This document shows positions 52,201 to 53,782 of a DNA stretch of 64,000 nucleotides, in pieces. The stretch's first letter is position 1. Every line of letters begins with the position of its first letter. Below the pieces are notes generated by a model that had not been told where the DNA came from, searched no databases, and worked only from the letters and a program-made list of their open reading frames with translations. A program made the translations under genes and the position numbers. The stretch comes from Choanephora cucurbitarum. Lineage: Eukaryota; Mucoromycota; Mucoromycetes; Mucorales; Choanephoraceae. Location: positions 124,001 to 188,000 of the forward strand of contig JAIWNI010000023.1 of NCBI GenBank assembly GCA_025331435.1. Direction: 5' to 3'.

Positions 52201-53782
52201 GTTCTTAATGCCTGAATGGTTTCAGTCAATTGAGTGTATTGAGGCTTGATTTGATCCATTTCAGCCTGTTGTACTGTGATGCGATTGTTTAATTCTTGTA
52301 ATTGGTCGTCTACTGAAGTCTACAAAAAAAAATTAGACTCAAACTAGAGTCGTGAATCACTTGTCATGTACCTTGTATTGTTCTTCAGAGAGTTGAGAAT
52401 CTTCAAGATCAGTGATCATCAATTCAAGTTGAGCCTTTGTTCTCATCAATTGTTCACGTTCATCTTGTAAATCTTTCTTTTCGGCCTCATGCAATTGAAC
52501 TGTCTGTTGGATTTCTTGAAGCTTGGCCTTGTGTGCCTGAACGGTTTCTTCATTCTTGGTGTAATTTTCACGAAGTGCTTCACCTGTACTGATATGTTTT
52601 CTGCGCTCTTCTTCCAATGTATCCAATCGTTGATTTGCACTTGATTGTTCACGAGCATAGATGGTGTATTCGATGGCACGACGTTGTTTATCGATTTCTT
52701 GAAATTCAGACAATTCAGCCTTTTCAGCTTCCAATTCATGCAAACGATCTTCAATATAAGTCAAGATTTCTTGAATCTTTGTACGCTTGGATTCTGTTTA
52801 ATGATTAGCTCGACATGCAATAGGCATTGAAACAATAGTTACTTACGAGTTTCTTGCATTAATTTGTTGGATTCACTACGTTTCTGTTCATAGACACGAG
52901 TACCTGCAATTTCTTTCAATAGTTTGAGACGATCTTCATCTTTGGCTGTGGTCAATGAGTTAATACGGCCTTGAGGGACGATATAGTAAGGATTAGCACG
53001 AGAGAAACCAGCGCTTTCCAACAAACTCATGACTTCAGTCTTTCTATAGAAACACACAAATAGAAATCAATCATCAACATGATCTCTCATAAGCTAATTT
53101 GATCTTTACGTAATAGATTTTTTGTCCAAAGAGTATTCATCCAAAGTCAACCCGATGCTTCTACGCAATACTACTTCTTCTTTACCAGTCTAAAGAGTGT
53201 ATTTAATGACATATGTTTTATTAGCAGGCAACCTAAACTTACTGGAAAGCGATTATCTGAGTTATCAAAGATGATTTCAACAAAAGCAGAAATGGTAGCT
53301 GCACCAACACCTTCCTATAAGAATTGCATGAATTTCAATTGATATATAGTGCGATCTATTGATGAAAGCTTACATGAAGTAAAGCTTGTCTTTCTTCTTT
53401 ACTTAAGCTTTGGTAAGCATCACCCAAGACAAAACGAATGGCTGAATTGGATTTTGTATGAGAAATTGAATCTTAAACGCGTCGTTTTATAGTTCGTACC
53501 TGCAAAGAAATTACTTTTGCCTGAACCGTTTCTACCCACTAAAAGGAATGAACAAGGTCAACTAATCACAAAGTAAGAAATAGATGGTCTTCTTTTACCA
53601 ATCACATTATGCTTAGGACTAAAAGGGTCAATGGTCATTTGGTCCTTATAGGACTTGAACCCTTGAATGATGATCTAGAGAGAACAAGATGCAACATGAA
53701 AAAGAAAAGGTAAATTAAGGACATTCTATTGACATGTCTTTTCTATATTGTTCGTTCATGACGCTACCTGCTTGATATACAT
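49227..53782 (-). CDS. SMC3: Cohesin subunit SMC3
   Basis: Eighteen exons close in frame to 1188 residues: 53782-53768, 53674-53599, 53538-53500, 53441-53374, 53314-53243, 53189-53110, 53043-52847, 52793-52372, 52319-52198, 52146-51729, 51670-50753, 50694-50440, 50375-50055, 50004-49861, 49805-49740, 49684-49507, 49455-49295 and 49241-49227. Seen: N-terminus MYIKQIIIQGFKSYKDQ; Walker A GRNGSGKSN; SRANPYYIVPQGRINSL; two long coiled coils; hinge (about residues 500-680, with GRITFIPLNRV and GRGAMSGGY); ABC signature LSGGQKSLVALAL; and Walker B FYLFDEIDANLD. These identify SMC3 over other SMCs. With Smc1 and the kleisin it forms the cohesin ring that holds sister chromatids. Oddity: the acetyl-acceptor lysine pair is missing (IGLTLDEY in place of the usual G-x-K-K-D-x-Y, exon 53189-53110). 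CGCG motifs lie just upstream. Confidence 0.95.

Follow-up and report, generated by a model that had tools for sequence, protein, structure and literature searches.

By its sequence, the gene under study on the minus strand of the window (the whole stretch of DNA that was analysed, 64,000 nucleotides) is the cohesin subunit SMC3; the Lys-Lys pair missing from it is taken here to define regulation by Eco1 and not membership of SMC3. The gene model and the parts of it that matter for the argument are listed below.

49295..53782, minus strand: SMC3 gene, 17 exons placed by hand, 1184 residues; the C-terminal part beyond 49295 lies outside the model
53500..53538, minus strand: SMC3 exon 3 with the Walker A motif GRNGSGKS, from translation
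53110..53189, minus strand: SMC3 exon 6, the KKD-loop region, 80 bp, encoding TGKEEVVLRRSIGLTLDEYSLDKKSIT
53142..53147, minus strand: codons of Thr105 (ACT, 53147-53145) and Leu106 (TTG, 53144-53142), the Lys-Lys acetyl-acceptor site
52847..53043, minus strand: SMC3 exon 7 with the conserved continuation KTEVMSLLESAGFSRANPYYIVPQGRINSL, from translation and PDB alignment
49861..50004, minus strand: SMC3 exon 14, the C-terminal head lobe with K1014 and M1035, from translation and alignment
49507..49684, minus strand: SMC3 exon 16 with the ABC signature LSGGQKS and Walker B LFDEID, from translation

Residues 1-193 aligned without a gap to Psm3 of S. pombe (PDB 6yuf_C) and to human SMC3 (8roj_A), with identical numbering. 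A PDB search with the same residues returned SMC3 chains with E values from 4e-90 to 4e-59; the best matches outside SMC3 were SMC2 (1e-27), SMC1A (2e-15) and SMC4 (3e-13). The alignment places Thr-Leu at position 105/106, compared to Lys-Lys in both the human and the S. pombe protein. An earlier note on this DNA had claimed that both acceptor lysines were replaced by Thr-Leu in an otherwise normal ATPase head, and both parts are borne out: the first by the translation of exon 6 and the ungapped PDB alignment, the second by the presence of VGRNGSGKS, LSGGQKS and LFDEIDANLD and by matches of the product to the Pfam models SMC_N (201 bits) and SMC_hinge (111 bits), both above the cut-off. The exon coordinates given there, 53110..53189, were correct as well, to which we add that the gene lies on the minus strand. 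The junction of exons 6 and 7 has normal splice signals. A splice variant that would bring the pair back was considered and rejected, because the two codons are interior to exon 6, far from its edges, and the flanks are conserved.

A multi-exon gene on the plus strand (54771-55923) is the neighbour of SMC3. Its product starts MTVPEDTFPIGYFYIVSKMNGLVLDIRDPETA and contains repeated GLVLDI units, which we take to resemble a lectin-like trefoil.

The earlier note had also raised the possibility of a second SMC3 copy carrying the lysine pair. None was found when the whole genome was searched with the Lys-Lys SMC3 of Jimgerdemannia. This query gave 14 matches, nine of which were exon pieces of the SMC3 locus while the other five fell at the SMC4, SMC2 and SMC1 loci; since all were accounted for in this way, there was no sign of a second SMC3. 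Exon pieces of SMC3 as short as 24-32 codons were detected in the genome search, at E values from 0.6 to 9e-6. Going by signature motifs, we take the other SMC loci that emerged from the genome to be SMC4 (C340), SMC2 (C223), SMC1 and SMC5 (C303).

Distribution and conservation of the uncharged pair

Homologues were counted among the best 120 of 4173 matches to SMC3. In this set the 105/106 pair was Lys-Lys in 93 proteins, Thr-Leu in 19, Ser-Leu in three, Thr-Met in one, Ala-Leu in one, Gln-Lys in two and Thr-Lys in one. Both lysines were missing from 24 of the 120, of which 23 belong to Mucorales by name and one, an unnamed protein that adjoins Mucor hiemalis in the tree, by its position there. 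The genera with two neutral residues that we assign to Mucorales include Rhizopus, Mucor, Thamnidium, Pilaira, Phycomyces, Lichtheimia, Absidia and Syncephalastrum, among others. The two Gln-Lys proteins of the 120 are from Umbelopsis and the Thr-Lys protein is from Lunasporangiospora alone. Jimgerdemannia and Bifiguratus, the Endogonales among the 120, are both Lys-Lys, as are the Glomeromycotina and the other Mortierella relatives in this set. All 24 Mucorales homologues among the best 120 of 4173, together with the window, lack both lysines, so the loss is lineage-wide, a possibility that the earlier note had raised; among the sequences sampled, the uncharged pair is common to Mucorales. 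The SMC3 of Rhizopus stolonifer, 94% identical in the head, is one of these proteins, and because it and 23 further Mucorales proteins are also without both lysines, an assembly error is excluded in practice.

Two single proteins stood out in the survey. The Thr-Lys pair of Lunasporangiospora selenospora, whose listed Mortierella kin are Lys-Lys, means either that the first lysine was lost independently or that the sequence is in error. A divergent protein of Rhizopus arrhizus that resembles SMC3 shows 70% identity in the head, a Walker A of GINGSGKS, Ser in place of the conserved Gly103 and a Ser-Leu pair; it may represent a second SMC3 copy of this species that evolves fast.

An alignment and tree were made from 46 of the best 120 homologues plus the window sequence, giving 47 rows. 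The 74 homologues that were dropped, mostly from Aspergillus, Penicillium, basidiomycetes and chytrids with one plant protein, are all Lys-Lys. In a quick maximum-likelihood tree of 1195 columns, which included the two columns of the pair and was drawn with a midpoint root, the 25 rows neutral at both positions formed one group (SH-aLRT 100) that the two Umbelopsis proteins adjoined (100). The row nearest to the window SMC3 was Rhizopus stolonifer.

Conservation was compared column by column between the 25 Mucorales rows and 20 outgroup rows. At least 90% conservation in the outgroup was seen in 394 columns, of which 307 were kept at 90% or more in Mucorales. In 28 columns no more than a quarter of the Mucorales rows retained the outgroup residue; 12 of these columns fall in residues 1-200, and within these 12 a basic residue gave way to an uncharged one only at 105 and 106. 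The C-terminal lobe has two further changes of this kind, at 1035 and 1083. The new pair is itself kept: in all 25 Mucorales rows residue 105 is Thr, Ser or Ala and residue 106 is Leu or Met, a pattern that points to selection acting on an uncharged loop and not to drift.

The DKK that follows the pair had been put forward in the earlier note as a possible substitute acceptor, a suggestion that did not hold up. In the 25 Mucorales rows the position of its first lysine holds K, R, G, N or S, while the second is Lys throughout, as it also is in 18 of the 20 outgroup rows. With one lysine variable and the other shared with the outgroup, nothing marks DKK as a new acceptor, and it was rejected as a candidate.

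Cohesin factors encoded in the genome

The earlier note had proposed a search for Eco1/ESCO, Wapl and Pds5 in the same genome. We searched the assembly (one Mucorales genome, 33.4 Mb in 357 contigs) for these and other cohesin factors. Within its limits, the search detected no Eco1 acetyltransferase, while it did detect the cohesin core, Pds5, Scc2 and separase. Pds5 was detected with PF20168 at E 1e-73, Scc2 at 6e-47 and separase at 2e-70; SA/STAG was recovered in two pieces, and the C-terminus of Rad21 matched at only 39 positions out of 55 (E 2e-12). There are two copies of the Pds5 region (C130:16500-22500 and C329:84000-90000), with 99.46% identity over 6 kb and one of the two on a 23-kb contig. 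The two sets of Pds5 matches probably represent assembly redundancy or a second allele, paralogues being unlikely.

In this genome the Eco1 catalytic model PF13880 gave no candidates, and neither did the Eco1 zinc-finger model PF13878 or the Eco1 protein of Umbelopsis used as query; for these last two, with control genomes that were prokaryotic, an empty result is no proof. The catalytic model scores 105 bits on the Umbelopsis Eco1 and 104 bits on that of Mortierella, and therefore a similarly conserved Mucorales Eco1 should be detected unless introns cut it finely. The Umbelopsis Eco1 is a 222-residue model with no zinc-finger match. We also searched across organisms with three composed Eco1-like query sequences. 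Among the 120 listed of 412 matches, many of them unnamed, Eco1 was found in Umbelopsis, Mortierella, Paraglomus, Diversispora, Acaulospora, Basidiobolus, chytrids, Coemansia and Piromyces, and no protein among these 120 carried a Mucorales name. As a divergent Mucorales Eco1 could rank lower, this result is support and not proof. A further search with a typed Eco1 consensus was uninformative on fungi, since every named protein in its list of 120 out of 362 matches came from an animal.

The Wapl model PF07814 likewise gave no candidates, for one model in one genome with prokaryotic control genomes, and the model for Scc4/Mau2, PF10345, gave no matches in the same genome. Scc4/Mau2, the partner of the cohesin loader, may have been lost too or may be too divergent for the search. 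Since the Scc4 search was also empty and fast-evolving families may be missed, the absence of Wapl is less sure than that of Eco1, and we regard loss of Wapl in Mucorales as likely. As a point against such a loss, the SA surface that receives Wapl in humans looks intact, with Trp and Arg in the alignment at what we take to be the relevant residues. The APDAP loop of Pds5, which according to the available text of PMC10656103 receives a Wapl motif, reads APESP here; the yeast chains have APDAP and the human one APEAP. A mutation in the D-loop of yeast SMC1 bypasses Eco1 (available part of PMC4709263). The SMC1 of this genome keeps the D-loop Asp (FVLDEVDAALD), and a change of this kind was rejected as the means of bypass.

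Proposed mechanism and alternative explanations

The cohesin ring is normally locked by acetylation of two SMC3 lysines. We propose that the uncharged Thr-Leu loop would behave like permanently acetylated SMC3, making the acetylation step unneeded. Rings would stay closed once loaded, no S-phase acetylation would choose which of them hold sisters, and removal of cohesin would rest on separase, with Wapl-driven release probably gone as well, although this is less certain. On balance we think it probable that cohesin in Mucorales is fixed at an uncharged, acetylated-like loop and is independent of Eco1. The replacement of the residues, its distribution and the empty Eco1 searches are observations; to these the reading adds a behaviour of the ring that we infer from neutral substitutions in yeast. 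In budding yeast, SMC3 K113T, K113N and K112Q K113Q abolish release, and a mutation of Scc3, in the surface proposed as the partner, suppresses deletion of eco1 as well as the lethality of K112R,K113R (PMC10656103, from the text available). S. pombe survives the absence of Eso1 when both sites are Asn or Gln, and in both yeasts the loss of the acetyltransferase is largely suppressed by deletion of wpl1 (PMC10994779, in the sections available). Budding yeast without Eco1 and Wapl still has a cohesion defect of 65-70% (PMC4709263, same limitation), and therefore the loop change or another factor must supply the tethering function.

The route to this state may have been stepwise, K105 changing first with Eco1 kept, as in Umbelopsis, and K106 and Eco1 being lost afterwards on the Mucorales branch. 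Gln is a usual mimic of acetyl-lysine. Umbelopsis has Gln at 105, an intact K106 and an Eco1. The second lysine is reported to be the slower but biologically important one for Eco2 of the frog and Eco1 of yeast (PMC5349539, in the part available). Two separate losses of K105 instead of one are possible. According to a review, CENP-A was lost before the split of Mucorales and Umbelopsidales, and a single loss of K105 would therefore fall on the same branch as the loss of CENP-A. The link between them is a hypothesis, correlating one event with one event. More tentatively than the change at the loop itself, we suggest that the whole order could have dismantled the cycle of Eco1, SMC3 acetylation and Wapl, erosion beginning on the branch of CENP-A loss and ending on that of Mucorales, as part of one rebuilding of chromosome segregation.

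The strongest alternative is that the cycle persists, with some acetyltransferase acting on other SMC3 lysines such as K1014 and so antagonising a Wapl that our search missed. All 46 rows that extend over K1014, the counterpart of K1013 in S. pombe, have Lys there. In S. pombe this lysine is acetylated and cooperates with K105/K106, yet K1013R alone caused neither TBZ sensitivity nor a defect in mono-orientation (PMC10994779, as far as its available text goes). The Wapl partners Pds5 and SA are retained, and the failure to find Scc4 indicates that weakly conserved proteins may escape the search. Against this, no Eco1 was found by two Pfam models or the Umbelopsis protein, and K1014 is equally conserved in Lys-Lys species, hence no gained substitute. 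Because of these last two points, we rate a persisting cycle below an Eco1-independent loop and regard it as unlikely, though it is the alternative to take most seriously.

A second possibility is that the lysines were lost for their role in DNA sensing or ATPase activity during loading and loop extrusion, so that the motor was retuned and loss of acetylation was a by-product. Both lysines are close to the ATPase site of Smc3 (PMC4709263) and may help to bind DNA (PMC10656103), as stated in the portions of these papers available. Other basic residues of the head have been lost in the C-terminal lobe, where Lys at 1035 became varied and Arg at 1083 mostly Ile in Mucorales. Position 1035, which corresponds to human K1046 by alignment, is Lys in 18 of 19 outgroup rows and in both Umbelopsis; it is uncharged in 24 of the 25 Mucorales rows (Met in the window) and Arg in the remaining one, which changes the context from FEKLVP to FE-x-LVP. 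Arg at 1083 is lost in Umbelopsis also. Two residues ahead of K1014, at position 1012, Arg stands in 21 of the 25 Mucorales rows, compared to Gln in 18 of 19 outgroup rows. This would be a possible charge compensation, but the idea fails for the window and R. stolonifer, neither of which has Arg there. Retuning moreover accounts for the apparent loss of Eco1 only secondarily. As the main cause we consider it distinctly unlikely; as a contribution, retuned DNA sensing or ATPase activity is compatible with an Eco1-independent loop and with the other lost basic residues.

Neutral drift, in which the loop is tolerant and the Thr-Leu pair meaningless for function, is very improbable. The S. pombe K105R/K106R mutant does grow, and its TBZ sensitivity and mitotic cohesion defects are mild, but the same mutant has clear meiotic defects, with 34.6% equational segregation (PMC10994779, available sections). 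Drift across an order would also be expected to scatter more than the few residues that the 25 Mucorales rows show at the pair, and Lys occupies both positions in 93 of the best 120 of 4173 homologues. That the loss is an artefact of sequencing, assembly or splicing, or is offset by a second SMC3 with the pair elsewhere, is scarcely credible: the assembly does contain at least one redundant contig, but 24 Mucorales proteins from other sources agree, no second SMC3 locus was found and the codons sit within an exon with conserved flanks.

Significance and comparison with known systems

Among the listed titles of the open-licence literature we found no report of a natural lineage that has lost the SMC3 lysine pair; the papers that mention cohesin together with Mucorales treat other subjects by title, and none turned up on Eco1 with Wapl in Mucor. 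Absence of Eco1 and Wapl has been reported elsewhere; what appears to be new is that the acetylation site is missing from cohesin throughout an order, as a fixed trait among the members sampled. A natural lineage without both lysines and, as far as seen, without the enzyme suggests that the lock is dispensable. Mucorales could serve as a test bed that separates the role of acetylation against Wapl from tethering and loop anchoring, questions that the yeast mutants leave open. The coincidence in branch with the loss of CENP-A opens a specific evolutionary hypothesis to testing. On a practical level, SMC3 acetylation would be unsafe as a marker of cohesion in Mucorales.

The reference system is the Eco1/ESCO-regulated SMC3, with its acceptors at K112/K113 in S. 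cerevisiae and K105/K106 in human and S. pombe. It shares with the protein described here the subunit, the loop, the head and the hinge, and differs in having Lys-Lys where Thr-Leu is found here, in a genome where no Eco1 was found. In our alignment, Dimargaris and Dispira, which we take to be more distant zoopagomycote fungi, have Lys-Lys in SMC3, and Coemansia, presumably zoopagomycote likewise, is among the organisms with a listed Eco1. For Zoopagomycetes, the phylogenetic profile of a 2023 review indicates that WAPL and Eco1 seem absent, in a section that does not deal with Mucorales or with the two lysines (PMC10246852, in the part available). The streamlined cohesin of Tetrahymena is reported to be without Eco1, WAPL and Scc4, and Pds5 was not found there either (PMC6208729, within the text available), whereas Pds5 is present here. 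The acetyl-mimic and release-dead smc3 mutants made in S. cerevisiae and S. pombe likewise carry uncharged residues at the same loop (PMC10656103, PMC10994779, from the available parts of both). One of them, K113T, has Thr at the second lysine, whereas Thr occupies the first in the window (PMC10656103, same part). Those alleles were engineered or selected in species that have the lysine pair, whereas the Mucorales version is natural and, as sampled, fixed across the order.
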